From positions 62,001 through 126,000 of the forward strand of contig NZ_CP104144.1 of the NCBI RefSeq assembly GCF_025200715.1: a stretch of 64,000 nt of DNA, written 5' to 3'. The stretch's first letter is position 1. Each line of letters begins with the position of its first letter. Shown piece by piece: positions 8,420 to 62,675 of the stretch. A program made the translations under genes and the position numbers. This stretch comes from Rhizobium sullae. GTDB lineage: Bacteria; Pseudomonadota; Alphaproteobacteria; Rhizobiales; Rhizobiaceae. A model generated the notes under the pieces. It did not search any database, had not been told where the DNA came from, and saw only the letters and a list, made by a program, of their open reading frames with translations.

Positions 8420-8437
8420 AGAACCGGATATCGATCT

Positions 8438-16397: not shown

Positions 16398-16510
16398 GGG
16401 GACCGGAACAACCCTAGCCACCCTTCGCCATGCAGTTCGTCTTGCCAGGCTGAGACGTTCCTGAGCGGCGGATGTGGCCGGCATGTGCCGGTGACATCGT
16501 GTCCGTGCAT

Positions 16511-17329
16511 TTACCGGATCGGCACATCCCTCTGCCTTGCAGCGGTCAGAAGCCGCTCATGAATACCATTGATTGCAGGAGCGATCATGTAGCCGTTCTC
16601 CAGATCGCCAATCATGACCGACTGCTCGCGCGGTGCTGCCAGCCAATGCAATCCAATGAGAGCGCATATCATAGCATCGATCTTGTCCTGGTCAGCTTTC
16701 ATCGGCGCCGCGTTTGCTGAGACGGCTGAACACCATGACTCTAGTTGCGCCAGGGCTCGAAGCTCTCCGAATTTCCGGACCGTTTCTGACACAGACTGCC
16801 AATGCGCGAACTTAAACGTCTTCCGGTTGGCTGGATTATATTTTGGAGCGCCGAGGCGGCGGCAATAGGTATTCTCGATTGCGAGTAATGCCAGGGCAGG
16901 AAAAACTTCGAGAAGAAATAATCCTTCATGCGCTGTTCTTGCAAGTTCGGGATCCTCGATTGCACCAAGTGCGCCCTTGAACCGCCAGATTGGCGCAGCA
17001 GCATCGAACATGCCAAGCTTCGATCGGTTCGCCGGTTGAACGCCGCCACCTACCCAGGAAATGAGCGATCCGGCAACCTTGTCGACGGGTCGCGAGCCGC
17101 TCAGATTTGGGACAATTGTCGGCTGATCAAGAGCGACCAGGCATTTGCCAACTTGCCCTCGCTCGCTATGGATGATCTCTACCGCCTCGTTGAAGGAGGC
17201 GAGCCGGGGCATGAAGTGCAATCGCGACCCCGCTTCGTCTTCGCGTAAGACGCAGATCCCTCCTGGCGCCCTGGGATTGTCTGTCCAGGCAGAGTCGAAC
17301 CCAATCACAGATGTGGTCGAGGTGCTCAT
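16511..17329 (-). CDS. DUF429 family protein
   Basis: The 272-aa protein starts with an RNase H-like first strand (SVIGFDSAWTDN, with the characteristic Asp) and has the conserved LVALDQPTIVPN and a C-terminal DQDKIDAMICALIGLHW segment, all typical of DUF429 predicted nuclease-like proteins. There are no signals for export. It lies on the same strand just downstream of the broken fic gene (21 bp between), so the two were probably once co-transcribed. Members are often found near mobile or defence-like loci, but the activity is not established. Confidence 0.82.
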   Translation of the reverse strand: MSTSTTSVIGFDSAWTDNPRAPGGICVLREDEAGSRLHFMPRLASFNEAVEIIHSERGQVGKCLVALDQPTIVPNLSGSRPVDKVAGSLISWVGGGVQPANRSKLGMFDAAAPIWRFKGALGAIEDPELARTAHEGLFLLEVFPALALLAIENTYCRRLGAPKYNPANRKTFKFAHWQSVSETVRKFGELRALAQLESWCSAVSANAAPMKADQDKIDAMICALIGLHWLAAPREQSVMIGDLENGYMIAPAINGIHERLLTAARQRDVPIR

Positions 17330-17350
17330 TCCATCCCTCTTCAGGCAGAC

Positions 17351-18457
17351 TCACTCCTGCAGAACATAGCTGGAGCTGCGTCCTCCAGCCGCTTCCCTTC
17401 TGAGGATACCGCGCCGCAGAAGGTCGTTTATATCCCTCAGCGCAGTGTCCGGCGAGCACCTTTCAATTGTGGCATATTTCGAGGACGTGAGCTTTCCATC
17501 GAATCCGTCGAGGAGGCGATTGGTCCTGTCACGTTGGCGGTCATTGAATGTTTCGCCCTCGTGTTGCTTCCAGAATTCGGCCTTGAAAAGCACATCTGAG
17601 AGGGTTTCCTTCGCACCTCCTAGGCGCGGTCAAGGCATTGCAGGAACCAGTCCAGCCACGGCGTCACGTCAAGGTCCCGGGCTTTGTGCGTCCTCTCCAG
17701 AATATCGTAGTAAGCTTTCCGGTCGAGAGGATTTGCGCCGGCATGCTGTAAAAGCGTTGCGGGCTATCTTCGGACCGGGCAAGCATCATATCCGCTATAG
17801 CACGAGCGATGCGGCCATTGCCGTCATCGAAGGGATGGATGGTCACAAACCACAGGTGGGCCAGGCCCGCCTTTAGGACAAGATCAATGTCCTCGCCGCT
17901 ATTAAACCAGTCGAGAAATGCGTTCATTTCGGGGTCGAGCCGTTCTGCGGCTGGCGCCTTATAGTGGACGCGGTCATTGCCGAGCGGACCTGAGACGACC
18001 TTCATCGGCCTCGACTTGTCGTCGCGCCAAGCGCCGACAACAATTCTCATCATGCCGCTGCGACCAGTCGGAAGAAGCGCCGCATGCCAGCCGAACAGGC
18101 GTTTGTCGGTCAAGGATTCGTCGAATTTCTGCGTGGCATCGAGCGTCATCTCGATGACGCCCTCAACATCGCGCGATCGGCGGGCAGCACCGCGCCAGCC
18201 TCAATGCCAAGGCGACGGGCAATCGATGACCTGACCTGCTGGCGGTCGAGGTTTTCGCCTTCGATCTCGCTGGATTTGATAACGTCTTCGGTCAGCGTCT
18301 TGAGAATGGCTTCCTGGCGTAATGGGAAGCCTAGCGCCTGCATATGGCCAAAGAGTCTGCCCTGCCGATGCCGGACGGTGACGAGCTGCTGGGACAGGTT
18401 TTCCAGCTTCCATTCGATCTTGGGCCATTCCGGCAGTTGATGAATGTACTTGGACAT
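17351..18457 (-). pseudogene. Fic family AMP transferase with DUF4172-type N-terminus, broken by three frameshifts
   Basis: Read from the ATG at 18457 the gene encodes KYIHQLPEWPKIEW..., the inhibitory motif SSEIEG (S-x3-E-G), the Fic motif HPFDDGNGRIAR (intact) and a C-terminal winged-helix-like end near 17351. Three breaks occur by my reading: two extra bases (CG) near 18172, shown by the 37.1-kb copy which reads on as ADRDVEGVVEMTL; two extra bases near 17727 (CTCTCGACC); and one missing base near 17625. Restoring them gives a continuous protein of about 365 aa. As it stands no full-length Fic protein is made. Confidence 0.8.
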
Positions 18458-48329: not shown

Positions 48330-49235
48330 TTGAACCTGAAGCATCCGTTGCCGCCGCTCAACGCTCTTCGTGCCTTCGATGCGCTCGCCCGCTGCGGCAG
48401 CCTGCGCGCCGCAGCTCAGGATCTTGGGGTGGTGCCGGGAGCGGTTAGGCAGCAGCTTCAAAGCCTTGAGGAGTATTTCGGAGCGGCTCTCTTTGTCCGC
48501 AAGGGTGGCAGGGTGACGCTCAATGCCGCCGGACTGCGTTTTGCCGATGCAGTTGGAATTGCATTCGCGATCGTCTCCCGTGCGGCAGAAGAGATTCAGC
48601 AACGAGATCGCAAGACGCGCCTTCGTCTCGGCGTACCCATGCCGATGGCCCTTTCCTGGCTAATGCCACGACTGCCGCGCATTCATGCGGATCTTCCCGA
48701 CCTGGAGATCGATGTCGTTCCAGTTGCCATTACCCGCACGCTCGCAGACTCGCCCGACCTTGACGCCGTGATCGCCGGCGGCGAATATCGCCCTTTGCCC
48801 GACATCGTAGCTACCGCCTTCATGGTCGATGCGTTCGGCCCGGTTTACAGCGCCGCCGGGCCTGCTCCATCCGGCACCGATCTTGATGACTGGCTCGCAA
48901 ATGCCACGGCACTGGTGGCCCGCGATGTTCCCTATCTCTGGGACGATTGGTTTCGTGAAAGCGGAACACGCCCGTCTCGTTTTCTGAAACGGGTTGAAAT
49001 CGAGGACCTGACGCTGGCGATCGGTGCGGCGAAGGCCGGTCTGGGTGTTACGATAGCGCCGCGGGCTTCCATCGAGATGGAGCTCGCCAGCGGTGCGCTG
49101 ACAGCGCATTTTGGTTTCGCAATCCGACCGATCGGATTCAGGCTGTGCTGTCGCGCCGCAGATCGCAAGAGCCGGACGATCGGTCTCCTGGCGGATTGGC
49201 TGCGCCGGGAAGGTCAGGCGGCCGATCTGGCCTGA
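48330..49235 (+). CDS. LysR family regulator (GcvA-like)
   Basis: The protein of about 301 aa starts LNLKHPLPPLNALRAFDALARCGSLRAAAQDL, typical of the GcvA group, with effector domain behind. The TTG at 48330 is preferred because GGAGAG lies a few bases upstream and the LysR homology begins there; longer frames add about 70 unrelated residues. It is transcribed in line with the SAHH-like gene 115 bp downstream, which it may regulate. Confidence 0.85.
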   Translation: MNLKHPLPPLNALRAFDALARCGSLRAAAQDLGVVPGAVRQQLQSLEEYFGAALFVRKGGRVTLNAAGLRFADAVGIAFAIVSRAAEEIQQRDRKTRLRLGVPMPMALSWLMPRLPRIHADLPDLEIDVVPVAITRTLADSPDLDAVIAGGEYRPLPDIVATAFMVDAFGPVYSAAGPAPSGTDLDDWLANATALVARDVPYLWDDWFRESGTRPSRFLKRVEIEDLTLAIGAAKAGLGVTIAPRASIEMELASGALTAHFGFAIRPIGFRLCCRAADRKSRTIGLLADWLRREGQAADLA

Positions 49236-49350
49236 ACAGGAAATCTGCCCATTGGCGCAGTATTATGTCCCTGTTGACCGCCGGCTTCGCACGGTAGGGA
49301 ACATCCGCAGAAAAACCGGCAGCGCGCCGACGATCAGCGGAGAGAAGACC

Positions 49351-50514
49351 ATGGCACGACAACACCAACTTTCGCGAATCGAATGGGTGGCGGACAGTTG
49401 CCGGCTGCTAAACGCTATCGCCGAAGAATTCTCCCGCACAAAGCCTTTCCAGGGTCTGACGATCGGCACCGCCATTCACCTGGAACCCAAGACTGTCGCT
49501 CTTCTCATGACATTGAGAAAGGGCGGCGCCAATCTCGTGGCAACAGGCAATCTCAACAGCACCCAGCCTGCGACGGTGGAATACCTCAAACGGCATGGAA
49601 TCGCCGTGATCGGCGAGCAGAGCACAGACGCGAGGGCGCATCGCGGCTTCATCGACACTCTGCTCGACCGCCAGCCAGATTTATTGCTCGACAACGGAGC
49701 CGATCTTTTCGCCCGCGTCGCCGAGCGACCCTACAAGAACTTGCTGGGCGGTACTGAGGAAACGACGTCCGGACGACGGCGTCTCGCGCCGATGCGCGAG
49801 GCGATCGCGCTGCCGATTCTCGTCATCAATGACAGTCCGATCAAGCAGTTTGCCGAAAACCGCCACGCGGTCGGCCAGTCGCTGTTCGAGAGCTATATGC
49901 GCTTCACCAACCGTTCGACCAATGGCAAGCGCGTGAGCGTTTTCGGTTATGGTGCCTGCGGCAAGGGTGCCGCCGGATGTTTCCGCAGTGCTTTTAGCAA
50001 TGTCAGCGTGGTCGATGTCGATCCCGTCACTGCTCTTGAAGCCCATCTCGACGGCTTTTCAACGCCGCCCAGAAGCGATGCCATCGCGTCCGCCGATGTG
50101 ATCGTCACCGTCACAGGCTTTGCCAATATCATCACAGCCGCGGACCTGCCGATGTTCAAGGACGGTGTCATGCTGATCAATGGCGGACATTTTCCGACCG
50201 AAATCGATGTCGATGGCATCAAATCGGCAGCAGGGCCGAAAGCGGTCGACACCTATGCGGGTGACGGTATCGAAACCTTACTTCTGGACGATGGCCGGAA
50301 GATCCATATTCTCGGCCGTGGGCATATGGCCAATCTCGCGGGCCCCCGGCCGCTCGGAAATTCGATCGAATCGATGGATCTGGGTTTTGCCCTGCAGGCG
50401 CGCTGCCTTGAGCGGGTGGCGGGCGGAAAGCTTGATCATACCTCTTGTGTGGTTCCGGTACCAGCTGACATCGATGCGCAGGTCGCCTCCGGCTACCTCG
50501 ATCTCAATCGCTAG
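49351..50514 (+). CDS. S-adenosylhomocysteine hydrolase-like protein
   Basis: The 387-aa protein keeps several SAHH blocks: IGTAIHLEPKTVAL, GNLNSTQPAT, LLLDNGAD, GGTEETTSG, INDSPIK and NGGHFPTEID, and an NAD site GYGACGKGAAG. However, the usual Asp after GYG and the C-terminal Lys/Tyr tail that completes the neighbour's NAD site are missing, and it is shorter than the usual 430-490 aa. It is thus a divergent relative that may act on another thioether or nucleoside. GCGGAGAGAAGACC precedes the ATG. LysR lies upstream. Confidence 0.82.
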   Translation: MARQHQLSRIEWVADSCRLLNAIAEEFSRTKPFQGLTIGTAIHLEPKTVALLMTLRKGGANLVATGNLNSTQPATVEYLKRHGIAVIGEQSTDARAHRGFIDTLLDRQPDLLLDNGADLFARVAERPYKNLLGGTEETTSGRRRLAPMREAIALPILVINDSPIKQFAENRHAVGQSLFESYMRFTNRSTNGKRVSVFGYGACGKGAAGCFRSAFSNVSVVDVDPVTALEAHLDGFSTPPRSDAIASADVIVTVTGFANIITAADLPMFKDGVMLINGGHFPTEIDVDGIKSAAGPKAVDTYAGDGIETLLLDDGRKIHILGRGHMANLAGPRPLGNSIESMDLGFALQARCLERVAGGKLDHTSCVVPVPADIDAQVASGYLDLNR

Positions 50515-50883: not shown

Positions 50884-52035
50884 TCAATATGCTGGTTTGA
50901 CGGGAAACCAATCCGCGCGCTGCTTATCGAGGTATGCGCCGGCAATACCGGAAACGCGATATCTCTCGAGGGATCCCTCATCGATGACAACACCGAGCCC
51001 TGGCTCCTCGGGCACCTCAAAGCGGCCGCCAGCCAGTACCGGCGGATTGGCACAGATATCGCCACCGAGATAGGCCCGTTCGGTGTCGATCGCGATGGAG
51101 AGGTTGGGGATCGAGGCGGCAAGATGGATATAGGCGGATTGCGAGAGCGCCAGTTCCGCGCCGGAGTGTAGTGTCACAGGAATGCCGACGGCCTCGCAGA
51201 TCGCGGCTGCCTTGATCGTCTGCCAGAGGCCGCCTGCCTCGTGCGGATCGAGCAGCACGACATCGGCAGCCTGCGCGCGGACGATATTGCCGATATCGGA
51301 AAGCGTGTAGGCGCTTTCGTCGAGCGCGATCGGCACGGGACTTCCCGCGACAAGTGCGGCATGGCCGGCGAGATCATCGAGTTCCAGCGGCTGCTCCACA
51401 TAGGCGGGATCGAAGGGCTTCAGCTTTTCGAGCTGCCGCTTGGCTGTCGCGATGTTCCAGGCGCCGTTGACGTCGAGGCGCAGCGGCCGGCCGCCGATGA
51501 CATTACGCGCCGTCTCAGTAAGCAGGATATCGCTCTTCTCGTCGAAGCCGATCTTCACCTTGAACGTTTCGTAGCCGGAATCGAGGAAACGCTGCAGCCG
51601 CGGCTTCAGTGCCGCCGGATCGTTGGTGAAGAGATAGGCTGCCGCTTCGACATCCTTGCGCCAGCGGCCTCCCCACAATGCGTAGAGCGGCAGTCCCGCC
51701 TGCTTGCCGAGCGCATCCCACATCGCCATTTCCAAAGCAGCGATTGCCATCACCGCGGCACGCTTGTGGTGATAGAAGCCAGCGCCGAGCACATGGCGGT
51801 GGAGCCGCTCGACATCGGTGACCGGATAGCCGATGGCAAGCGGTGCGACGACATCCGTAAAGACGGCCGGTACGTTGGCGATCAGGGAGATGGTCTCGCC
51901 CCAGCCGGTGATTCCCGCGTCCGTTTCTATCCTGCAGACGAGCCGCGTCGTGCCGATCCGGCGTCCGGAGCCCCAGAGGATATCCTCCGTAAAGGGCACG
52001 CGTATCAACCAGTGGGACACTTTCGTAATGCGCAT
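50884..52035 (-). CDS. Enolase superfamily protein (mandelate racemase/muconate lactonizing type)
   Basis: The 383-aa protein has the capping domain and barrel of the family: KxK motif TFKVKIG, metal ligands in LDVNGAW (Asp), YVEQPL (Glu) and ALDES (Asp/Glu), and HSGAELALS at the barrel end. Family members abstract a proton next to a carboxylate: cycloisomerases, racemases and sugar-acid dehydratases. It is divergent from the IclR-lactonase gene and shares its promoter region with the operator at 52091-52105, so it belongs to the sugar-acid regulon. GGAGAGA precedes the ATG. Substrate unknown. Confidence 0.88.
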   Translation of the reverse strand: MRITKVSHWLIRVPFTEDILWGSGRRIGTTRLVCRIETDAGITGWGETISLIANVPAVFTDVVAPLAIGYPVTDVERLHRHVLGAGFYHHKRAAVMAIAALEMAMWDALGKQAGLPLYALWGGRWRKDVEAAAYLFTNDPAALKPRLQRFLDSGYETFKVKIGFDEKSDILLTETARNVIGGRPLRLDVNGAWNIATAKRQLEKLKPFDPAYVEQPLELDDLAGHAALVAGSPVPIALDESAYTLSDIGNIVRAQAADVVLLDPHEAGGLWQTIKAAAICEAVGIPVTLHSGAELALSQSAYIHLAASIPNLSIAIDTERAYLGGDICANPPVLAGGRFEVPEEPGLGVVIDEGSLERYRVSGIAGAYLDKQRADWFPVKPAY

Positions 52036-52084: not shown

Positions 52085-52112
52085 TTGACATGGAACTTAG
52101 TTCCAAGATATT
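52085..52112 (+). promoter_or_regulatory. Promoter with IclR-type operator in the spacer
   Basis: TTGACA (52085-52090) is followed 16 bp later by GATATT (52107-52112), a plausible sigma-70 pair. The spacer holds TGGAACTTAGTTCCA (52091-52105), a perfect 6-3-6 inverted repeat close to the consensus described for E. coli IclR (TGGAAATnATTTCCA). Binding would block both this promoter and that of the divergent enolase-superfamily gene. Operator identity is inferred from sequence match and position. Confidence 0.78.
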
Positions 52113-52154
52113 CGATCGGTCAAGGGCGGAGAGGATTTCGCCGCGGGAGACGTC

Positions 52155-53888
52155 ATGAGCAAGGTGCAACTGAGCATCGACACGGCCGAGCGCGATACGG
52201 TTGGCGGGGAGGGACATGGCGTTCCCGGCGTTCAGGCGCTGACGCGCGGCATCCAGATCGTCGAGGCCGTCTCAGCCGAGCCGCGCGGCCTGCGTTTCAC
52301 CCAACTGCTGGACGAGACACAGTTGCCGAAGGGCACGCTGCACCGCCTGCTGCAGGCTCTCGTCGACGAACGGCTGCTCGCCTTCGACAGCCGGGACCAG
52401 GTCTATCGCCTGGCGCCGCGTCTCTTCCAATGGGCGCACAAGGTCTGGGACAATTTCGACCTGCGCGGTGCCGCCGAGCCGGAGCTCGAGCGCCTGCGCG
52501 ACATGACCGGCGAGGCGATCCGGCTCGGCGTGCTCGACGGCTCGATGGTGCTCTACATCGATCAGCGCGAGGTGCCGCAGCCGCTCCGCCTCAACAACGG
52601 CGTCGGCGGGCGTGCCGCGCCGCATGCGAGCGGCATCGGCAAGGCGATCCTTGCTCATCTTTCGCTCGAAAAGCGCCGGGCGCTGCTTGCCGACATCGAA
52701 CTCGAGCGGCTGACGCCGAACACCATCATTGATGTCGAGGAGCTGCAGCGTCAGCTCGACCTCACGAAGGCGCGCGGCTATGCGGTCTCGGTTGACGAGC
52801 AGAATACCGGCATCTCCTCCGTGGCCGCGCCGGTCCTCAACCATCGCGGCGAGCCGATCGGCGCGATCGGCATCATCGGCCCGTCCTTCCGGCTTCCCGT
52901 CGATCGCCTGCACGCGTTCGGACGCGACGTGATCGAGGCCGCACGCCGGACATCCGGCAATTTCGGAGAATTCGCAATGTCGCTCGCCGTCAAGCCGCGC
53001 CCGCTCGGGCCGGATCGCTCCGATGTCCGCTGCGTGATCCCGGCAAGCACGTTTCTCGGCGAGGGGCCGCACTGGTCGGCGAGGGAAAACAAGCTCTATT
53101 TCGTCGATATTCTGGCACCTGCCGTCTATACTGGCGATACCGTCAAGGGCACCTACACGACGATGCAGGTGCCGGAGCTGATCGGCTTCGTCATTCCGCG
53201 CAAGCGCGGCGGCTTCGTCGCCGCCATGCATGGCGAGATCCGCGGCCTCGATCTTACCTCTGGCGAGATCACGACACTTTCGCGGCCCGAAGCGGACCGA
53301 CCCGGCAATCGCTTCAACGACGGCAAGTGCGATAGGGCGGGCCGCCTTTGGGCAGGCACGCTGGCGATCGACACCTCTCCCGACCAGGGCCGTCTCTGGC
53401 GTCTCGATCCGGATGGCCGCACCCATGAGATGGATCGCGGCTTTCACGTCTCGAACGGCCTCGGCTGGAGCCCCGACGACAAGACCTTCTACTTCACCGA
53501 CACGGCCAAGCAGACGATCTATGCCTATGATTTCGATCTCGAAACCGGCGCGATTGCCAACCGGCGCATCTTCGTTGCCGTGCCGGAGGCGGAGGGCAAG
53601 CCGGACGGGCTGACGGTCGATGCGCAAGGCTTCGTGTGGAGCGCCCATTGGGACGGCTGGTGCGTCACGCGCTACGACCCGGACGGCAAGGTGGAGCGGG
53701 TGATCAACCTGCCGGTGCCGCGTCCAACGAGTTGCGTCTTCGGCGGCCCGGATATGCAGACGCTTTTCGTCACTTCAGCGCGGATACGGCTTTCGGCAGC
53801 ACAGCTTGCCGACGCTCCGCTTTCCGGCAGCGTCTTTGCCATCGATACCGGCATCAGGGGTCTGCAGGACCCGATGTTCGGCGGCTGA
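52155..53888 (+). CDS. IclR family regulator fused to an SMP-30/gluconolactonase domain
   Basis: One uninterrupted frame of 577 aa. Residues about 25-95 are an IclR winged helix (LTRGIQIVEAVSAEPRGLRFTQL, KGTLHRLLQAL), about 100-275 the IclR effector domain (HASGIGKAILAHL, GISSVAAPV). From about 292 a six-bladed SMP-30 lactonase begins with metal ligands intact: Glu303 (FLGEGPHW), Asn388 (RFNDGKCD), Asn434 (VSNGLGW) and Asp484 (GKPDGL). The enzyme would open a sugar lactone while the regulator controls the operon. GGGAGA precedes the ATG. No frameshift joins the two parts. Whether both functions are active is untested. Confidence 0.93.
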   Translation: MSKVQLSIDTAERDTVGGEGHGVPGVQALTRGIQIVEAVSAEPRGLRFTQLLDETQLPKGTLHRLLQALVDERLLAFDSRDQVYRLAPRLFQWAHKVWDNFDLRGAAEPELERLRDMTGEAIRLGVLDGSMVLYIDQREVPQPLRLNNGVGGRAAPHASGIGKAILAHLSLEKRRALLADIELERLTPNTIIDVEELQRQLDLTKARGYAVSVDEQNTGISSVAAPVLNHRGEPIGAIGIIGPSFRLPVDRLHAFGRDVIEAARRTSGNFGEFAMSLAVKPRPLGPDRSDVRCVIPASTFLGEGPHWSARENKLYFVDILAPAVYTGDTVKGTYTTMQVPELIGFVIPRKRGGFVAAMHGEIRGLDLTSGEITTLSRPEADRPGNRFNDGKCDRAGRLWAGTLAIDTSPDQGRLWRLDPDGRTHEMDRGFHVSNGLGWSPDDKTFYFTDTAKQTIYAYDFDLETGAIANRRIFVAVPEAEGKPDGLTVDAQGFVWSAHWDGWCVTRYDPDGKVERVINLPVPRPTSCVFGGPDMQTLFVTSARIRLSAAQLADAPLSGSVFAIDTGIRGLQDPMFGG

Positions 53889-53917: not shown

Positions 53918-55012
53918 ATGGCCAAACTGGAACTCAGCGGGATCAGGAAATCCTTTGGTGCCGTGGACGTGCTGAAGGGGATCGATCTCACTGTCGAAGA
54001 TGGTGAATTCGTCGCCTTCGTTGGCCCTTCCGGCTGCGGAAAGTCGACGCTGCTGCGGCTCATCTGCGGGCTCGACGAGATCACCGCCGGCCAGATGGCG
54101 ATTGACGGGGAGATCGTCAACGACGTTCCGCCGGCCAAGCGCGGCATCGCCATGGTTTTCCAGTCCTATGCGCTCTATCCGCATATGACGGTTGCCGGCA
54201 ACATGGGCTATGCGCTGAGGCTCGCCGGAGTGCCGAAGGAGGAAATCCACAGCCGCGTGGCAGCCGCCGCCAAGGTGCTGCGCATCGAGACCTATCTCGA
54301 CCGCAAGCCACGGCAGCTTTCCGGCGGCCAACGCCAGCGCGTCGCAATCGGCCGCGCCATCGTGCGCGAACCGCGCATCTTCCTCTTCGACGAACCGCTG
54401 TCGAACCTCGATGCGGCGTTGCGCGTGGAAATGCGCATCGAGATCGCCCGCATGAAGGAAGAGCTTGGCACGACCATGGTCTACGTCACGCACGACCAGA
54501 TCGAGGCGATGACGCTTGCCGACAAGATCGTGGTGCTGAACGGCGGCACGGTCGAGCAGGTCGGCTCGCCGCTCGATCTTTACAACAAGCCGGTCAACCG
54601 CTTCGTCGCCGGCTTCATCGGCAGTCCGCGCATGAACTTCCTGACGCTCGGCGCCCGCAAGGCCGACAACGTTCATGCCGTATCCGGCGGCGAGATCCGC
54701 CTGGCGGCGAAGCTATCCGAAGCGCCGGCCGAGATCGGCATCCGGCCCGAACACATCTCCCTGACGGCCCGCGGCGCGCCGGATTCGCTTGCCGGCAAGG
54801 TAACGATGACCGAGCATCTCGGTTCCGACACTTACGCCTATGTCGCTCTCGACGGCTCGCAGGACGTGCTCGTCGTGCGCCTTTCCGGCGAAAAGGCGAT
54901 CAAGCGCAACGAGCCGATCGGCGTCCATGCCGATCCCGGCATGGCGCATGTCTTTTCCGCGGCCGGTCTGTCGCTTGCCTCCGCTCGTCCCGTCTCGCTG
55001 GAGGCTGCATGA
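53918..55012 (+). CDS. Sugar ABC transporter ATP-binding protein (UgpC/MsmK type)
   Basis: Walker [10 protein letters not shown] (about 36-44), LSGGQRQRV, Walker [13 protein letters not shown] and a TOBE-like C-terminus are all present (364 aa). It energises the permeases encoded at 57206 and 58146; the ATPase gene is placed first and separated from them by the SDR and binding-protein genes. GGGGAGGAGG precedes the ATG. It is similar to, but distinct from, the ATPase encoded at 8438. Confidence 0.94.
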
Positions 55013-55815
55013 CCACCCATCCCGAACTCGTTGCGAAAGTTCAAGTCGAGGCCGCTCGCTATCCGAGCCTCGCCGGCAAGGGCGTCATCATCACCGGCGG
55101 CGGCTCCGGCATCGGCGCTTCGCTGGTGGAGCATTTCGCCGCCCAAGGCTGCAAGGTCGGCTTCATCGAGCTCAATGGCGAACTGGCGGCAGAAAACGCC
55201 AAGGCCATCGACGACCGGACGGGCAACAAGCCGGCATTCCGTGTTGCTGATCTTCGCAACATCGAGGCGCTCCGTCGCGCTGTGGGAGAGCTTTCCGCCG
55301 AGATCGGCCCGGTCCGCATCCTTGTCAACAATGCCGGCAACGACGATCGTCTGCCGCTCGAGGAGGTAACGCCGGAATACTGGGACGACCGCTTCGCGAC
55401 CAATCTGCGCCATCAGTTTTTCGCGGCGCAGGCTTTGATCGACGGCATGGCGCAAGCCGGCGGCGGGGCGATCATCAACATGGGGTCGATCTCCTGGATG
55501 CGTGGCGCGGCAGGGCTGATCTTCTACACCACCGCCAAAGCCGCCGTCATGGGCATGACCAAGTCGCTTGCCCGCGAGGTCGGCATCCGCAACATCCGGG
55601 TCAATTCCATCGCGCCCGGCTGGGTGCTGACCGAGCGCCAGGTGGAGCGGGCCAAGCGCATCTACCAGGGCAAGTTTTCCGAGTATCTCGAGGCGCAATG
55701 CCTCAAGGAGCATGTCCTGCCGCCCGATATCGCTCGCATGGCCCTGTTCCTTGCGGCCGACGACTCGCGGCTCGTTACCGGCCAGACCTTCATCGTCGAT
55801 GGCGGCGTCGTCTGA
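55009..55815 (+). CDS. SDR family sugar dehydrogenase (probable aldose 1-dehydrogenase)
   Basis: The 268-aa SDR shows the cofactor motif [12 protein letters not shown], catalytic Ser in NMGSISW and YTTAK (Tyr-x3-Lys), and [11 protein letters not shown]. It overlaps the ATPase stop by four bases. In this set it most likely oxidises the imported aldose to the lactone that the fused SMP-30 domain hydrolyses. The exact sugar is unknown; a sugar-alcohol or hydroxy-acid dehydrogenase is the alternative. Confidence 0.88.
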
Positions 55816-55836: not shown

Positions 55837-55851
55837 TGAAACACAGTTCCA
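55837..55851 (+). promoter_or_regulatory. Second IclR-type operator, one mismatch
   Basis: TGAAACACAGTTCCA has the same 6-3-6 layout as the operator at 52091-52105; one arm is identical and the other differs at a single base. It lies 18 bp before the binding-protein ATG, between the SDR and binding-protein genes, so the regulator could control an internal promoter or form a loop with the upstream site. Confidence 0.6.
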
Positions 55852-55868: not shown

Positions 55869-57143
55869 ATGAAAATGAGGAAACTGGTCACGGCGACGCT
55901 CGCCGTCAGCATGTTCGCGATGGGGGCCGCTCGCGCCGCCGATTTGAGCTGGATGGGCTACAGCTATGCCGAGGAATCGGCAAAGCCATCCGTTGAGAAG
56001 ATCATCGCGGGCTTCACGGCCAAAACGGGTAAGACGGTAGAGCCGATCCCGTCCGCCTTCGGCGACTTGCAGAAGAACGTGTTTCTGCGGGCCCGCTCCA
56101 AGACGCTGCCGAGCGTCGTCCAGATTTCCGAGCGCTGGTTGCCCTCGCTCAGCAAGCTGCCCGGCCTCGTCGATTACAACACGGTCTTCGGCAAGGAAAA
56201 TCTCGAAAAGATCTATGCGCCCGAGGCGCTCGCCATGGGTCAGATAGACGGCAAGCAGCTTGCCGTGCCGCTGATGTCCGGTTCGATCGGCATGGTCGCC
56301 AACCAGGCGGCACTGACCAAGGCCGGCATCACCGACCTGCCGACCACAGTCGAGGAATTCAAGGCCGACCTGGTCGCGATCCGCGACAAGGTGCCGAATT
56401 CGGTGCCCTATGCCATGGCGACCAAGAACAACAGCGACATTCTCGTCGATTTCCTGACCTGGGAATATGTCTTCGGTGCACATGTCATCGATCCTGAGGG
56501 CAAGGTGGTGGTCGACAGCGACGCCAGCCGCAAGGCGCTCGCCTTCCTCGTCGATCTCATGAAGGAGCGGCTCGTTGCACCCGAGATCGGCCGGCCGGAT
56601 GCCCGCCGTCTCGTGGGCCAAAGCGCTGCCGCCTTCTATCTCGATGCACCGCAGTCGCGCACCTTCCTGCGCAGCTTCTCCGGCCAAGGGCCAGCCTTCG
56701 ACGCCAACATCAAGCCAATGCAGGTGCCGGTCGTAAAGGCGGGTGATACGCCGGTCTCGATCCAGTGGGCGCATCTGATCATCTCCTTCGCCCAGAACAG
56801 CCCGCCGACGAAGGAGGATGCGAACATGCAGTTCATTGCTTATCTCGGCGACGATGCGGTGGAGACGCAATTTCCGGTCGAGCAGAGCGCGCTGCCCGGC
56901 ACCAAATCCGCCCGCGCCAACCCGGTCGTCGCAAGCGATGCGTATCTCAGCGCCTGGGCGAAGAACAACACCCATCCGCGGCGCAACGAAGTCGGCATCT
57001 GGAGCAATGGCGGCGAGTTGACCGACATCCTGGCCCAGGAGGTGCAGGCGGCCCTCCTCGGCCAGAAGAGCGCGGATGAGGCGATCAGCTCGATGAGCAC
57101 GCGCATGAAGGCGTCGATGACCAAGGCCGGCCACGCGCAATAG
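55869..57143 (+). CDS. Sugar ABC transporter substrate-binding protein (family 1)
   Basis: The 424-aa protein starts with a Sec signal peptide (LVTATLAVSMFAMGAARA, cleavage near residue 23) and continues as a family 1 sugar binder (MGYSYAEESAKPSVEKIIAGF, PIPSAFGDLQKN). GGGAGGAGGAACA precedes the ATG. The transporter probably imports the aldose or aldonate processed by the neighbouring enzymes. Specificity cannot be read from sequence. Confidence 0.92.
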   Translation: MKMRKLVTATLAVSMFAMGAARAADLSWMGYSYAEESAKPSVEKIIAGFTAKTGKTVEPIPSAFGDLQKNVFLRARSKTLPSVVQISERWLPSLSKLPGLVDYNTVFGKENLEKIYAPEALAMGQIDGKQLAVPLMSGSIGMVANQAALTKAGITDLPTTVEEFKADLVAIRDKVPNSVPYAMATKNNSDILVDFLTWEYVFGAHVIDPEGKVVVDSDASRKALAFLVDLMKERLVAPEIGRPDARRLVGQSAAAFYLDAPQSRTFLRSFSGQGPAFDANIKPMQVPVVKAGDTPVSIQWAHLIISFAQNSPPTKEDANMQFIAYLGDDAVETQFPVEQSALPGTKSARANPVVASDAYLSAWAKNNTHPRRNEVGIWSNGGELTDILAQEVQAALLGQKSADEAISSMSTRMKASMTKAGHAQ

Positions 57144-57205: not shown

Positions 57206-58144
57206 ATGACCGACGTGATGCAGGCGCCTGGCCGCCTCGACTATCCCGTGTCGCCGCATGCCCGCAAAGGTGGGTTGCAGGCGGCGCAGCGCCGCATCGG
57301 CATGCTGATGCTGGCGCCGGCGGCGATCGCCTTTTCAATCATCATCCTCTATCCGTTTGTCCAGGCGCTCGGCCTGTCGTTCTTCGAAGATACGCTGCAG
57401 ACGATCGAGCCGACCTTCATCGGACTTGCGAATTTTAAGGCCATCCTCACCGATCCGGAGACCTGGCAGTCCTTCGGCATCACCGTCGTCTATGTCGGAG
57501 GTGCGACGATCGGCACGGTGGTGCTCGGCCTCGGCTGGGCGCTGATCCTCAACCAGCCGTTCAGGGGCCGCAGGGTAATCCGCGCACTGACGATCATGCC
57601 CTGGGTGGTGCCGAGTACAGTCAGCGCCTTCGTCTGGGCCTGGATCTTCAACAGCCGTTTCGGCGTCATCAACGGCGTGCTCCTCGAGCTTGAGCTTATC
57701 GACGTGCCGCAGGCTTGGCTTTCCACGCCAGAGGGCGCACTTGCCGCTGTCATCCTCACCCGCATCTGGCGATCGATCCCGCTCTTCATGGCCTTCTTCC
57801 TCGCCGGCCTGCAGAATGTCGACCAGGAGCAGATCGACGCAGCACGCGTCGACGGCGCCGGCAATTCCGCCATCCTGCGCGATCACCTGCTGCCGCATCT
57901 GAGGCCGGTGCTGATCGTCGTCGTGGTGCTCGGCGTCATCGGCGGCCTGCAGGATTTTGACACGATCTTCGCACTGACGGGTGGCGGACCGGTGCGGGCG
58001 ACCTCGGTGCTCTCCATCTCCGTCTATCGCAAGGCATTCGAGCAATGGGACATCGGCATGGCCTCGGCCATGGGCGTGCTCTGGGTAGCGACGCTACTGC
58101 CGCCCGCCTATTTCTATCTCCGCATGCTAGTGAAGGGGCGCTGA
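57206..58144 (+). CDS. Sugar ABC transporter permease (MalF/UgpA type)
   Basis: The 312-aa permease has a cytoplasmic N-terminus, six helices and the EAA-type loop (EQIDAARVDGAGNSAILRDHLLPHLRPVL). AGGAGGAGAAG precedes the ATG. The next permease gene begins one base after the stop. It works with the binding protein encoded upstream and the ATPase encoded at 53918. Confidence 0.94.
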   Translation: MTDVMQAPGRLDYPVSPHARKGGLQAAQRRIGMLMLAPAAIAFSIIILYPFVQALGLSFFEDTLQTIEPTFIGLANFKAILTDPETWQSFGITVVYVGGATIGTVVLGLGWALILNQPFRGRRVIRALTIMPWVVPSTVSAFVWAWIFNSRFGVINGVLLELELIDVPQAWLSTPEGALAAVILTRIWRSIPLFMAFFLAGLQNVDQEQIDAARVDGAGNSAILRDHLLPHLRPVLIVVVVLGVIGGLQDFDTIFALTGGGPVRATSVLSISVYRKAFEQWDIGMASAMGVLWVATLLPPAYFYLRMLVKGR

Positions 58145-58145
58145 G

Positions 58146-58982
58146 ATGTTCGATCTTTCCAGCCGCACGGCCAAGCTCGTCTTCGGCGGCACCATTCTGC
58201 TGATCGGCTTCTATCTGTTCTTTCCGATCTACTGGATGATCATCTCCTCGCTGAAGGCCAATGAGGAGCTCTACCAGGTCCTGCCGACCTTCTTTCCGAG
58301 GAACCTGACGCTTTCCCACTACTGGTCGCTGATGACCGAGAGCCAGCTCGGGCTCTATCTCTTGAACAGCCTGATCACCTCGGGCGCGAGCGCGACGATC
58401 AACACCATCCTGGCGATCTACGCTGGATACAGCTTCGCCAAGTACCGCTATCCCGGACGCCAGCCGATCATGCTCTTCATGCTCTCGGCGCAGATGTTCC
58501 CCTTCGGCCTGCTGCTCATCAGCATTTATCCGGTCATGACCGATTTCGGCCTGCTCGACACGCGGCCGGGGCTGATCCTGAGCTACATCGTCTTTGCCCT
58601 GCCGGTCGCCGTCTACATGCTCTACAGCTATTTCAGCCAGGTGCCGGACGAGCTGATCGATGCGGCGCGCGCCGATGGGGCCAGCGACTTCCGCATCTTC
58701 CACACGATCGTCATCCCGATCTCGATCCCGCCGATCGTCACCGTCTTCCTTTATTCCTTCATGTGGAGCTGGAACGATCTGCTCTATTCGATGACGCTGA
58801 TCGTCTCGGAGGACAAGCGCACCATCGGTCCCGGTCTGCTGCTTACCTATCTCAATGAAACCAATGCCGACTGGGGCGGCGCCATGGCGGCATCCCTGGT
58901 CGTCTCGGCCCCGATCGTCGCGGCCTTCATGTTCCTCCAACGCTATTTCATTCAGGGCGTCACTGCCGGAGCTGTCAAATGA
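58146..58982 (+). CDS. Sugar ABC transporter permease (MalG/UgpE type)
   Basis: Second permease, 278 aa, with six helices and the loop DELIDAARADGASDFRIFHTIVIPISIP. It ends with the class-typical FLQRYFIQGVTAGAVK. The stop overlaps the ATG of the DHDPS-family gene (ATGA). Confidence 0.94.
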   Translation: MFDLSSRTAKLVFGGTILLIGFYLFFPIYWMIISSLKANEELYQVLPTFFPRNLTLSHYWSLMTESQLGLYLLNSLITSGASATINTILAIYAGYSFAKYRYPGRQPIMLFMLSAQMFPFGLLLISIYPVMTDFGLLDTRPGLILSYIVFALPVAVYMLYSYFSQVPDELIDAARADGASDFRIFHTIVIPISIPPIVTVFLYSFMWSWNDLLYSMTLIVSEDKRTIGPGLLLTYLNETNADWGGAMAASLVVSAPIVAAFMFLQRYFIQGVTAGAVK

Positions 58983-59890
58983 CCACGAAACTTGCCGGGT
59001 CCTTCCCGGTGCTTCCCACCCCCTTTTGCAACGACGGCACGATCGACGAGCCGGATTTCCTTGCTGTCATCGATTTCGCCATCGAGAGCGGTTCCGACGG
59101 CGTCGTCTATCCGGGCGTGGCGAGCGAGGTGGATACGCTGACGCCGGAGGAGCGTCGGCGTCAGGTGGTCCTGCTCGGCGAGCGCATCGCCGGCCGGATC
59201 CCGATCGTCATCGGCGCGAGCGACCCTGACCCGAAAGCGGCCGCCCGCCATATCGCCCAGGCGGCCGCAATCGGTGCTGCGGCTGCGATGGTCATGGCGC
59301 CGCTCCATCTCGCTAACGACATCGCTGCCCAGATCGCCTATTTCAAGGAAGTCTCCGCCGGAGCCGGCGTGCCGATCATGCTGCAGAACCAGCCGAAGCC
59401 GATCGGCGCGGGACTGACGCCGGAGGAGGTGGCCGGGATCGCGAGCGCGGTGCCGGCAATCCGCTACATCAAGGAGGAGACACCTCCCTGCGGCCAGCAT
59501 CTGACCCGCATCAAGGCGGCCGCCAACGGTTCGCTCGAGGCGATCTTCGGCGGTGCCGGCGGGCGCTATATCACCGACGAGCTCGCCAGGGGCGCGGCGG
59601 GCACGATGCCGGCCAGCGAGCTTGCCGACATCCATGCCGCCCTCGTGCATGCCTGGCAGCAGGGCGATGTGAAGACGGCGAGAAAGCTCTATTCTGCCTC
59701 GCTGCCGCTTCTGAATTTCCAGGCGATCTTCCGCATGCACATGACGAAGGAGGTGTTGCGCCGGCGCGGTGTCATCAGGAATGTCTTCGTGCGCGGCAAA
59801 GGCCCGAAATTCGACGACGGCGACCGCGCCGAGCTTGCGGCGCTGATCGCGGATGCCGATCTGCCCTATAAGCATCACATACCGAGCTGA
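58979..59890 (+). CDS. Dihydrodipicolinate synthase/N-acetylneuraminate lyase family protein
   Basis: The 303-aa TIM-barrel lyase has the Schiff-base Lys in AIRYIKEETP (about residue 164), the pyruvate-binding GVASEVDTLT and a C-terminal GNxFxRG-like tail. In sugar-acid operons such proteins cleave or dehydrate 2-keto-3-deoxy acids. Here it would act on the product of one of the two enolase-superfamily dehydratases. True lysine-pathway DHDPS is unlikely given the operon context. Confidence 0.87.
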   Translation: MTTKLAGSFPVLPTPFCNDGTIDEPDFLAVIDFAIESGSDGVVYPGVASEVDTLTPEERRRQVVLLGERIAGRIPIVIGASDPDPKAAARHIAQAAAIGAAAAMVMAPLHLANDIAAQIAYFKEVSAGAGVPIMLQNQPKPIGAGLTPEEVAGIASAVPAIRYIKEETPPCGQHLTRIKAAANGSLEAIFGGAGGRYITDELARGAAGTMPASELADIHAALVHAWQQGDVKTARKLYSASLPLLNFQAIFRMHMTKEVLRRRGVIRNVFVRGKGPKFDDGDRAELAALIADADLPYKHHIPS

Positions 59891-59900
59891 GGTCGAAGAC

Positions 59901-61076
59901 ATGGGCAAGAACATCGTCGATGCGATCGTTTCAGTCGAAACCTTCATCATCTCCATTCCGCGCGAGGTGCCCTATCTCGGGCCGCTGAAGGAAGGCGAGG
60001 CGATCAACGGGCGCGGCTATCTCATCCGCAAGGGCAACCGCACGATCTATCCTTCCGCCGACATGACGCTGCTGGTGAAAGTGACCGGAGAGAGCGGCAG
60101 GGTCGGTTGGGGCGAGTGCTACGGCATCGTGGCACCGGAGGCGACCAAGGCGATCATTGACGACGTGCTCGGCCCCGTCATCATCGGCCGCGACCCGGCG
60201 GGCGCCGTCGTCATCCATGAGGACCTTTACGATCTGATGCGGGTGAGAGGCTTTTTTGGCGGCTACTATCTCGATGCGCTGGCGGGCGTCGACATCGCGC
60301 TCTGGGACCTTGCCGGCAAGGGCCTCGGCGTTCCCGTTTCGACGCTGCTTGGCGGGCGTCGCCACGACGCAATCCCCGCTTATGTGTCGGGCCTGCCGCG
60401 CGCGACGATCAAGGAGCGCTGCGACATTGCCGTCGAGTGGATCGGCAGGGGCTACAAGGGCATCAAGTTTGCCGCGGCGGTGTCAGATGAAGGCATCGTC
60501 AAGGAGATGGCAGCGCTGCGGGAGGCGGTCGGTCCGGACGTCGACGTCATGGTCGACCTGCACTGGAAATTCGAGGCGGCGGAGGCGATCCGGCTCATCC
60601 GCAGGCTGGAGCCCTACAATCTTTACTTTGCCGAGGCGCCCTGCCAGCCCGAAAATCTTGAAGGACAGGCGCGCGTCGCGCAGGGCATCGGCGTGCCGCT
60701 GGCGCTCGGCGAGGAGCTGCGCACGGCTTACGAATACCGTCCGCGCTTCGAGGCGCGGGCGATGAGCATCGTCCAGCCGGAGGTCGGCCACTCCGGCATC
60801 TCGGAATTCATCCAGATCGGCCGCATGGCGCAGGCGTTCCACATGAACGTCATTCCCCATGCCTCGATCAGCATCGGCATCTTCATGGCTGCCAGCCTTC
60901 AGGCAGCGTCAGCACTTCAGAATGTTCCCTATCACGAATACCAGCACTCCGTTTTTGACCGAAACCTCGATTTCGTTACCGGAGACATGGCATGCCAGGA
61001 GGGCTATTACACGATACCGACAGGAAGCGGACTTGGCGTCGAGCCGCATGACCGTCTTTTCGAATATATCAAGTAG
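59901..61076 (+). CDS. Enolase superfamily sugar-acid dehydratase (mandelate racemase subgroup)
   Basis: The 391-aa protein has GYKGIKFAAA (Lys), metal ligands in MVDLHWK (Asp), YFAEAP (Glu) and LGEELRT (Glu), and a His in VIPHASISIG at the end of the barrel, the pattern of acid-sugar dehydratases. It would turn an aldonate into a 2-keto-3-deoxy acid. Start at 59901 has GAGG upstream, 10 bp after the lyase gene. It is only distantly like the other enolase-superfamily protein encoded at 50884, so the two probably act on different isomers or steps. Confidence 0.88.
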   Translation: MGKNIVDAIVSVETFIISIPREVPYLGPLKEGEAINGRGYLIRKGNRTIYPSADMTLLVKVTGESGRVGWGECYGIVAPEATKAIIDDVLGPVIIGRDPAGAVVIHEDLYDLMRVRGFFGGYYLDALAGVDIALWDLAGKGLGVPVSTLLGGRRHDAIPAYVSGLPRATIKERCDIAVEWIGRGYKGIKFAAAVSDEGIVKEMAALREAVGPDVDVMVDLHWKFEAAEAIRLIRRLEPYNLYFAEAPCQPENLEGQARVAQGIGVPLALGEELRTAYEYRPRFEARAMSIVQPEVGHSGISEFIQIGRMAQAFHMNVIPHASISIGIFMAASLQAASALQNVPYHEYQHSVFDRNLDFVTGDMACQEGYYTIPTGSGLGVEPHDRLFEYIK

Positions 61077-61161: not shown

Positions 61162-61893
61162 TCATGTCCGAACAGCGTCTGCGGAGAGCTCCGTCTTGTC
61201 GGCATAGTTCATTATTCGATGAAAGCTCATCGAGATATGGGCGCGGCGTATGTATCCGATTGCTTCCCAGTCGCCTATCTCGGCTGCAGAGAGAACCGCC
61301 TGCATTTCACTGCGAAAGGCGGCAAACTCTTCGGCCAAACCGAGCTTCGGCATCATCTTCAGCACGACCCGCACGACCTGATAATAAAGCCGCTCGCTGA
61401 TTTCCCTGAGCGGCAGGTTCCCCGTGAAGGCCCGGATCTCGGCGAAGAATGCCATGTTCAGCAGCAAAAAAGCCTTCTGTGTCGGGTTCTGCATCGCGGC
61501 ATCGCATCGTGCGATGAGCGACCTGATCCGTTCCAGATCCTTCGCATCACGTGGCACGGGAGAAAGCTTGCCGATGAGAAGGGCGAGTTCCATCCGAAGA
61601 TGGTAGATTTGCACCAGTTCGTTGATGTCGGGATCGGTAACGATCGTGCCCACCCCATGGACCGATTCCACGAGTCCTTCGGATTCCAGCCTCGCCAGAA
61701 CACGCCTCACGGGCGTGCGGCTGGTGGAGAATTCCTTTGCTAGCTCTTCTTCGGACAAGCGGCTGCTCGGCGCGTATTCGAGCAGGCAGATGCGGTCCCT
61801 AAGAGTGTAGTATATGCGATCGAACCTCTCGCGGGCCGACCCGGACGGAAGAGGTTCGATGCTGGCCGTGTCGCTGGGTGTTTCAGTTTGCAA
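61162..61893 (-). CDS. GntR family regulator (FCD type)
   Basis: A winged helix (DRICLLEYAPSSRLSEEELAKEFSTSRTPVRRVLARLESEG) is followed by an FCD effector domain (ELVQIYHLRMELALLI, HISMSFHRIMNYAD). The start is uncertain: TTG at 61893, 2 bp after the ATPase stop, gives about 243 aa; longer frames run into the ATPase gene. It is the last gene of the amino-acid ABC transcript and could control it. Ligand unknown. Confidence 0.84.
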   Translation of the reverse strand: MQTETPSDTASIEPLPSGSARERFDRIYYTLRDRICLLEYAPSSRLSEEELAKEFSTSRTPVRRVLARLESEGLVESVHGVGTIVTDPDINELVQIYHLRMELALLIGKLSPVPRDAKDLERIRSLIARCDAAMQNPTQKAFLLLNMAFFAEIRAFTGNLPLREISERLYYQVVRVVLKMMPKLGLAEEFAAFRSEMQAVLSAAEIGDWEAIGYIRRAHISMSFHRIMNYADKTELSADAVRT

Positions 61894-61895
61894 TA

Positions 61896-62675
61896 CTATC
61901 CCGCTTGCAAGACAGCGTTGAGAAACTGCCTCGTCCTTTCGTTCTTGGGGTTCCCGAAGATTTCCGCCGGGGGCCCCTGCTCGCAAATCTTGCCCTGATA
62001 GAAGAAACACACCCTGTCGGAGAATTCCTTGGCGAACCCCATCTGATGGGTGACCATTAGCATGGTCAGGTCATGTTCGGTGCCGACCTTCCTTATCACC
62101 TGAAGAACTTCCCCGACAAGTTCAGGGTCCAGCGCGGAGGTGACTTCGTCGAACAGCATGATCTTTGGCCGCATCGCGAGCGCGCGCGCGATTGCGACGC
62201 GCTGCTGCTGGCCCCCGGAAAGTTGCGCAGGGTAATGGTCCTTCTTTGTCGAAAGCCCCACCATGTCGAGCAGCTCGGCGGCTCGCTCTTCGGCCTCCCG
62301 GCGCTTCATTCCAAGCACGGTGATCGGAGCTTCGATGCAGTTGCCCATTGCGGTCATGTGCGGAAACAGATTGAAGGACTGGAACACCATGCCGATCTTT
62401 GCCCTGATCCGCCGTATGTGCTTGGCGGTTGCCGGCACGAGCCTTCCGTCTTTTTCCATATGGGTCATTGGCTCCCCGTCGACCCAGAGCACGCCGTCGT
62501 TGATGGATTCCAGGGTCATCAGCATACGCAGCACGGTGGTCTTGCCCGAACCGGAAGGACCGATGATCGATACTTTCTCGCCGTAGCCGACATCGAGATT
62601 GAGATTGTCGAGAACGCTGAACGTGCCGTACCGTTTTGAGACGTTTTCGAAACGAACCATTGGCATGTCGGTCAT
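61896..62675 (-). CDS. Polar amino-acid ABC transporter ATP-binding protein (GlnQ/HisP type)
   Basis: The protein of about 259 aa has Walker A GPSGSGKTT, signature [15 protein letters not shown] and Walker B IMLFDEVTSALDPEL, all with the Gln/His class features. The ATG at 62675 has GGAGATAC upstream and overlaps the permease stop region. It energises the two permeases encoded at 62678 and 63328. An insertion SMTHMEKDG-like near residue 85 lengthens the protein, as in the ectoine/octopine subgroups. Confidence 0.92.
   Translation of the reverse strand: MTDMPMVRFENVSKRYGTFSVLDNLNLDVGYGEKVSIIGPSGSGKTTVLRMLMTLESINDGVLWVDGEPMTHMEKDGRLVPATAKHIRRIRAKIGMVFQSFNLFPHMTAMGNCIEAPITVLGMKRREAEERAAELLDMVGLSTKKDHYPAQLSGGQQQRVAIARALAMRPKIMLFDEVTSALDPELVGEVLQVIRKVGTEHDLTMLMVTHQMGFAKEFSDRVCFFYQGKICEQGPPAEIFGNPKNERTRQFLNAVLQAG

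Follow-up and report, generated by a model that had tools for sequence, protein, structure and literature searches.

In NrtR regulators, a domain from a hydrolase family reads a metabolite, its activity being retained in some members and lost in others, and in PutA a catabolic enzyme and a repressor share one chain which is switched by the redox state of the flavin. The xylonolactonase XylC of Caulobacter works in a non-phosphorylating sugar pathway. Here, we describe a gene of Rhizobium sullae which joins the domains of an IclR regulator to an SMP-30-type lactonase in a single polypeptide; it is located in a stretch of 64,000 nucleotides (assembly GCF_025200715.1, contig NZ_CP104144.1, positions 62,001 to 126,000 of the forward strand), which is referred to as the window and whose numbering is used below for the features within it. 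An excerpt of PMC8222616 gives a usual size of about 250 amino acids for IclR-family proteins and the consensus TGRAACAN1-2TGTTYCA for the operators of IclR group 2. For regucalcin/SMP30, part of PMC3551927 attributes metal binding to Glu18, Asn154 and Asp204 and contacts with the sugar to Arg101 and Asn103, the latter being described as critical. Based on the analysis presented here, we consider it probable that the fused protein is a bifunctional, autoregulated repressor of a sugar-acid pathway which carries the lactonase of that same pathway. Support in silico comes from the fusion itself, its predicted fold and active-site residues, the conservation of the operator, the positions of the sites in the genome, the association between recognition helix and operator, and the gene cluster in which the gene resides.

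Domain composition and predicted fold

The gene (52155..53888, + strand) is a single unbroken frame encoding 577 amino acids. The N-terminal HTH_IclR domain (Pfam PF09339, residues 28-78, 52236..52388; 46 bits versus a cut-off of 22), whose recognition helix reads LPKGTLHRLL, is followed by the IclR_C effector and oligomerisation domain (PF01614, residues 96-267, 52440..52955; 138 bits versus a cut-off of 24), by a linker at about residues 270-290 (52962..53024) and by an SMP-30/gluconolactonase (SGL) propeller (PF08450, residues 301-543, 53055..53783; 303 bits), the match to which spans profile positions 1-246 of 246 and is, hence, of full length. An initial annotation of the DNA had proposed that a full IclR protein and a full six-bladed lactonase lie in one frame, and our analysis confirms one protein with IclR DNA-binding, IclR effector and SMP-30 propeller domains. 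With HTH_IclR and IclR_C both above their cut-offs, the protein has the profile matches of the IclR family and departs from it by its size of 577 amino acids and by the presence of PF08450, length being a descriptive rather than a defining trait. No Nudix domain was among its Pfam matches at E <= 0.001. Parts of a DNA-binding and of a catalytic type are joined in one polypeptide, as is characteristic of trigger enzymes.

Structural modeling by AlphaFold2, using 15 diverse fusions, yielded a mean pLDDT of 88.2 and a pTM of 0.80. Confidence dips in the linker, where residues 271-280 have a mean of 58 compared to 87 for the blocks on either side, and it is also low or dipping for residues 1-24 and two further short stretches. 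In Foldseek comparisons, the modeled propeller closely resembled both the Caulobacter xylonolactonase (7plc) and human SMP30 (4gnc), with a target-normalised TM score of 0.94, while the N-terminal half matched the whole IclR protein 1mkm more loosely (TM 0.68 by target, rmsd 11.9).

Distribution of the fusion and conservation of the active site

A protein search returned 1327 matches, the best 120 of which all carry IclR_C and SGL, three of these 120 lacking the HTH domain. In a scan of genomes, 57 loci were recovered, some of which have just a lactonase. In total, 63 fusion ORFs (open reading frames) were collected. Six of these duplicate a locus that was also collected under another name, so that 57 distinct fusions remain, one of them (L047) cut by a contig end; that this number equals the count of scanned loci is a coincidence. 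L numbers are locus labels, L001 being the window's own protein and L028 a practically identical copy from another R. sullae record; L092, L098, L099, L101, L102, L104 and L111-L114 were found later and stand outside the 57. The fusion is uncommon and patchy in the groups sampled: in the class, no fewer than 6 of 385 genomes, R. sullae included, had long co-linear matches, as did 12 of 297 genomes of the order (17 of 397 by profile), and in a sample of the phylum there were 3 of 398 such genomes, one of them outside the class. Matches also occurred in 142 plasmid records (with 80% or more of the query covered in 131 of them), mostly from Sinorhizobium (58) and Agrobacterium (46). One of the relatives is a 46% identical fusion on pSymA of S. 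meliloti 1021 (L111, 389358-390968), which has the four active-site residues intact; the pSymA record carries no gene annotation at this stretch. Where genes are annotated under the listed plasmid matches, they are named as SMP-30/gluconolactonase/LRE family proteins, many of the matches having no gene listed, and some JGI protein names mention both halves. A locus of Faunimonas pinastri (L020) harbors two different fusions (8001-9731 and 15049-16797) in opposite orientation and about 5 kb apart, which are 77% and 47% identical to that of the window.

The initial annotation had also listed four residues of the lactonase as being in place, all of which could be read and aligned to the active site of SMP30: Glu303 (53061..53063) with Glu18, Asn388 (53316..53318) with Asn103, Asn434 (53454..53456) with Asn154 and Asp484 (53604..53606) with Asp204. 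Glu303, Asn434 and Asp484 are predicted metal ligands, Asp484 being in addition a possible general base, and Asn388 is predicted to act in catalysis or substrate binding. The equivalent of Arg101 of SMP30 is R386, an arginine in 63 of 63 fusion rows, those with a degenerate propeller included. All four residues are complete in 52 of the 57 distinct fusions, among them all 46 close and mid relatives (29 close, 17 mid). As a complete active site has been kept in the window's own clade, catalysis seems to be selected there.

Predicted operators and the recognition helix

Just upstream of the fusion gene, a promoter-like sequence on the + strand (52085..52112) consists of TTGACA (52085-52090) and GATATT (52107-52112), separated by 16 nt. 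The palindrome which the initial annotation had reported between these two elements was located at 52091..52105, wholly inside the spacer, which it fills; this predicted operator 1, TGGAACTTAGTTCCA, is separated by 55 nt from the divergent gene's start codon. No other promoter-like site exists between 51950 and 52250, and shuffled sequences contained an average of 0.0 (sd 0.2). In an alignment of 30 upstream rows, representing 29 distinct loci (L079 being L020), 29 rows have all 12 arm bases of the palindrome, and the remaining one has 11 of them. Conservation amounts to 0.91 for the six bases before the palindrome and 0.78 just after it, but drops to 0.49 and 0.56 in the outer flanks. A perfect site, defined as TGRAAC-N3-GTTYCA and permitting R/Y at two positions, precedes the fusion in all 29 close loci including the window and L028, and shuffles of the upstream regions, which preserve single-base composition only, reached 11 or more matches with a frequency of 0.0000. 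A chance palindrome is ruled out by these shuffles and by the conservation of the arms relative to the flanks. Both arms agree with the group 2 consensus at their outer six bases.

Our analysis further identified a second predicted operator, TGAAACACAGTTCCA (55837..55851), which is new here and goes beyond the initial annotation; it lies in the same cluster, upstream of the solute-binding-protein gene, whose start codon follows after 17 nt. A perfect site is present upstream of this gene in 20 of 27 loci, whereas none was found upstream of the genes for the ABC transporter ATPase (0/28), the short-chain dehydrogenase (SDR; 0/27), permease 1 (0/26), the DHDPS-family enzyme (0/24) and the second enolase-superfamily enzyme (0/24); shuffled upstream regions of the cluster genes reach 11 of 12 matches at rates of 0.0015 or less. 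In a distant Roseibium locus, the fusion is preceded by one site and the solute-binding-protein gene by two, and L042, too, has two sites ahead of the latter gene. The R. sullae genome contains four sites, compared to none for a reversed control pattern; two lie outside ORFs, both of them in the fusion cluster, and two are inside ORFs which were read by eye as those of a dehydratase and a permease.

That the fused protein itself would bind the palindrome is best supported by the association between its recognition helix and the site. Among 58 fusions with enough upstream sequence, the helix KGTLHR is accompanied by a perfect site in 32 of 33 cases, a number which overstates independence because most of the 32 are close relatives, and other helices, which L112 and L114 were found to have and with which they are counted, in 0 of 25. 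Beyond the close loci, only L042, L068 and L113 combine the perfect site with this helix. An operator universal to the fusion family is, accordingly, ruled out, as none of the 25 fusions with other helices has a perfect site.

Gene cluster and proposed mechanism

The fusion gene is the second of nine genes in an order which is identical in 26 of 43 loci. A divergent gene (50884..52035, - strand; PF13378 and PF02746), adjoining the fusion in many relatives, encodes an enolase-superfamily (MR/MLE) enzyme. Downstream of the fusion and on the + strand follow genes for a MalK/UgpC-type ABC transporter ATPase (53918..55012; UgpC model 473 bits, cut-off 432), the SDR (55009..55815; 297 bits to the NCBIfam D-xylose 1-dehydrogenase, below the cut-off of 400), a sugar-type solute-binding protein (55869..57143; assigned by Pfam, start codon read), two ABC permeases (57206..58144 and 58146..58982; Pfam), a DHDPS-family aldolase/dehydratase (58979..59890; nearest solved relative L-2-keto-3-deoxyarabonate dehydratase, 114 bits) and a second, galactonate-dehydratase-like enolase-superfamily enzyme (59895..61076; 190 bits, cut-off 311). 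Of the loci without the full set, several end inside the cluster, and some members are absent from L019, L020, L033, L046 and L065, among others. A setting of the fusion in a sugar-acid catabolic cluster, with ABC transporter, SDR, enolase-superfamily and DHDPS genes, is supported. Based on the nearest relatives of the SDR, the second enolase-superfamily enzyme and the DHDPS-family enzyme, the cluster reads as a non-phosphorylating sugar-acid route for which the fusion would supply the lactonase step. No other lactonase-domain match was detected near the fusion in the R. sullae genome or in the flanks of L028. The closest models and structures of the cluster enzymes single out no one sugar. 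Two annotated relatives have a 2-dehydro-3-deoxygalactonokinase (DGOK) gene nearby, which might hint at galactonate chemistry; the only DGOK match of R. sullae lies elsewhere in the genome, outside the fusion cluster. Just past the cluster, a GntR/FCD regulator gene (61162-62010) was matched among the 43 loci in L028 only, the flanks of these loci ending at about its position. On the other side of the cluster, a frame of 467 amino acids (49111-50514) matches the S-adenosylhomocysteine hydrolase NAD-binding domain with 103 bits, the match to the rest of that family being weak and partial (42 bits).

According to the mechanism we propose, the IclR part of the fusion, as a dimer or tetramer, would bind the palindrome located between the two elements of its own promoter and block RNA polymerase, and the second site would place the solute-binding-protein gene under the same control. 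The ABC transporter would import a sugar or sugar acid, the SDR would oxidise it to an aldonolactone, the fused propeller would open this to the aldonate, and the two enolase-superfamily enzymes together with the DHDPS-family enzyme would carry the aldonate through a 2-keto-3-deoxy acid. Repression might be released by a pathway intermediate, most likely the aldonate or the 2-keto-3-deoxy acid, bound in the IclR_C pocket, and occupancy of the lactonase site may help in this release. DNA binding by the fusion, repression, lactonase activity, the sugar and the effector are thereby what we infer from the sequence.

Several observations weigh against this proposal. The promoter is a match to the consensus only, and the operator deviates from the group 2 consensus at the seventh base of the arm. 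The close loci cannot be taken as independent, as the eight that were included in the IclR tree make up one clade, and since no common palindrome emerged in more distant fusions, operator 1 is not family-wide. A perfect site is found beyond the close loci in L042, L068 and L113 only, and the 24-kb stretch around the S. meliloti fusion contains no site with 11 of 12 matches. Conservation of both elements, as asked for by the initial annotation, is therefore seen for the fusion in many genomes and for the operator in the 29 close loci, not for the operator across the family. L072 has the helix KGTLHR without the site, and since three fusions with other helices (L033, L034 and L040) have a site with 11 of 12 matches, the split by helix is sharp for perfect sites only. 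Operator 2 is missing in seven close loci, from Microvirga, Faunimonas and Aminobacter. None of the closest curated pathway models is matched above its cut-off by the SDR or by either enolase-superfamily enzyme, and in a Roseomonas fusion 54% identical to the window's protein (L114) the propeller has the substitution D484N.

Possible coupling of the two halves and alternative explanations

The initial annotation had gone one step further in suggesting that the DNA-binding state could be set by flux through the lactone. That lactone turnover is itself the signal for DNA binding is speculative, the loss of active-site residues in divergent fusions bearing on it indirectly; the protein also contains an ordinary IclR effector domain, which could account for all of the sensing. 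The question of such a coupling divides two alternative explanations.

According to the first, the halves are tethered but uncoupled: the fusion would only ensure co-production, IclR_C would be the sensor, and the lactonase would work independently at the end of a flexible linker. This explanation is compatible with the repressor and lactonase parts of our proposal and denies the coupling only; we estimate its chances to be slightly below even. It is consistent with the intact IclR_C domain, with the fall in model confidence in the linker, with one split copy which is broken in the linker, and with an apparently unfused toolkit in the same genome, where an IclR regulator (L003), a lactonase (L004) and DGOK are encoded at C1:445589-449652. 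The history of the fusion bears on it from both sides. In the IclR tree, which includes 39 stand-alone proteins taken from the nearest matches, the IclR domains of 26 fusions fall on one side of a branch (SH-aLRT 96), and the fusion has, thus, been kept over a long divergence, which is not easily reconciled with mere tethering. In the lactonase tree, the 26 fusions reside in one supported group that also holds seven stand-alone entries, a point in favor of mere tethering, although some of these entries may be pieces of fusions; six label changes are required, and starred branches force at least three. Both are quick trees with some long branches. Our reading is that of one old fusion which may have been followed by losses or re-splittings, a single origin being backed by the IclR tree and not by the lactonase tree; several fusion events are the alternative, which we favor less. 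A further point against mere tethering is that several propellers have lost active-site residues and yet were kept, which the co-production of an enzyme does not explain.

These degenerate propellers form the basis of the second explanation, in which the propeller itself senses a ligand (lactone, aldonate or sugar) and thereby modulates DNA binding, catalysis having been lost repeatedly to give pseudoenzyme regulators. Among the 11 divergent fusions of the 57, five have an altered set of the four residues: L068 (D484A), L073 (D484G), L070 (E303D/D484S), and L077 and L078 with several changes each. Outside the 57, L104 shares E303D/D484S with L070, and L114 has the change mentioned above. Conservation of the lactonase domain, which the initial annotation had made a point of, holds for the four residues in all 46 close and mid fusions, L114 being a further fusion in which one of them is replaced. 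L070 and L104 are 59% identical overall, 56% in the propeller and 64% in IclR_C; being nearly as conserved as IclR_C, their altered propeller appears to be still constrained. The arginine at position 386, invariant even in the degenerate rows, counts in favor of a sensor, but may as well be structural. An extra lactonase in the flanks, with all four residues kept, occurs in two of 58 loci, L078 and L114, that is in 2 of 6 degenerate loci and 0 of 52 others (flanks of unequal length; L001, L047, L104 and duplicates left out). In L078, all four residues of the fused lactonase (8692-10476) are changed and a separate intact lactonase is encoded at 16466-17377, in a neighborhood which also holds an SDR and sulfatases; in L114, located on a plasmid of Roseomonas haemaphysalidis, the fusion (6998-8722) is found about 5 kb away from a separate intact lactonase (914-1801). 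Against a sensor function it has to be considered that these numbers are small and the pattern was spotted after the fact, that four of the six degenerate loci lack a second lactonase within about 8 kb while some intact loci have short flanks, that the second lactonase of L114 is on the other strand, beyond unrelated genes and outside the operon of the fusion, and that L070 and L077 are distant enough to make residue assignments less sure. In addition, the window's clade, with its complete active site, seems to have been selected for catalysis. The degenerate fusions are spread in a patchy fashion, since searches for further close copies of three of them matched 1 of 28, 1 of 5 and 1 of 10 genomes, each time the query itself. 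We regard a sensor function of the propeller as a distinct possibility, but lean against it. Taken together, the observations favor a non-catalytic propeller in some lineages, probably one which senses a ligand, but do not extend this to the window's protein, and the altered propellers that were kept, along with the extra intact lactonases, suggest an enzyme-to-sensor series. It might be speculated that the fusion is a two-pocket repressor in which the flux through the lactonase step would be read jointly by two sites, the SMP-30 site taking up the lactone and IclR_C the aldonate or 2-keto-3-deoxy acid, the family ranging from an active enzyme-switch (the window, S. meliloti) to a pseudoenzyme sensor (L070/L104, L078, L114), with the enzymatic job passing to a separate lactonase in some lineages; we hold this idea to be about as likely as the sensor function, or slightly less so.

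Two other explanations can be set aside. Candidates for another IclR-family regulator to which the palindrome might belong would be provided by the R. sullae genome, where the IclR part has eight additional matches at E <= 0.001; such an assignment is very improbable and was rejected, given that, of the four genome sites, the two outside ORFs both sit in the fusion cluster, and that perfect sites go with the recognition helix of the fusion itself throughout the 58 fusions, three distant ones included. A frameshift or assembly artefact joining two genes, to which the occurrence of both halves as separate short proteins in a few database entries might point, has practically no standing and is ruled out by fusions of the same length in many independent genomes and a 100% match in the separate R. 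sullae record L028, the few split entries inspected reading as frameshifted, truncated or cut pieces. Neither the confinement to a single genome nor the sequencing error that the initial annotation had feared was borne out, 57 distinct open frames of the fusion having been found.

Significance and comparison with known systems

If our proposal of a repressor carrying its pathway's lactonase is correct, rhizobia and other Alphaproteobacteria produce a metabolic enzyme together with its repressor as one chain from one promoter, and the relative in the model symbiont S. meliloti would be concerned as well. The plain SMP-30 family annotation common for such proteins hides the regulator. As the fused enzyme exists in both intact and degenerate form, a change from enzyme to sensor while attached to a repressor is directly testable, and the operators and target genes predicted here are defined well enough to permit a simple binding test. 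No description of an IclR-SMP-30 fusion was found in the literature searched, which most subscription journals lay outside of, nor did this literature yield a paper under guessed pSymA locus tags for the S. meliloti fusion. Regulators bearing an enzyme domain are as such already known from NrtR and PutA, and it is the IclR-SMP-30 version that is apparently new.

As far as the excerpt of PMC8222616 describes them, IclR regulators with group 2 operators resemble the fusion in their HTH_IclR and IclR_C domains, in a palindrome with TGRAAC arms and in a site near their own gene and the adjacent transcript; the fusion differs by a third, enzymatic domain of about 290 amino acids and by the seventh arm base. 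The xylonolactonase XylC of Caulobacter crescentus (7plb/7plc) and SMP30/gluconolactonase have the same six-bladed propeller (TM 0.94), SMP30 also sharing the four active-site positions; unlike the fusion, both are stand-alone enzymes without a DNA-binding part. A comparable set within the R. sullae genome itself is the unfused group (L003, L004 and L115), in which an IclR regulator and an SMP-30 lactonase are encoded side by side with the 2-dehydro-3-deoxygalactonokinase; here, the genes are separate, and the IclR protein is 34% and the lactonase 26-28% identical to the fused ones. The Nudix-related NrtR regulators (PMC6800001) are enzyme-bearing regulators, as is the fusion. Their enzyme fold is unrelated to that of the fusion, and the Nudix domain is the sensor there, whereas the fusion also has a complete IclR effector domain. 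In PutA-type trigger enzymes, finally, a catabolic enzyme and the repressor of its own pathway genes are united in one chain, and the same is predicted for the fusion of R. sullae.

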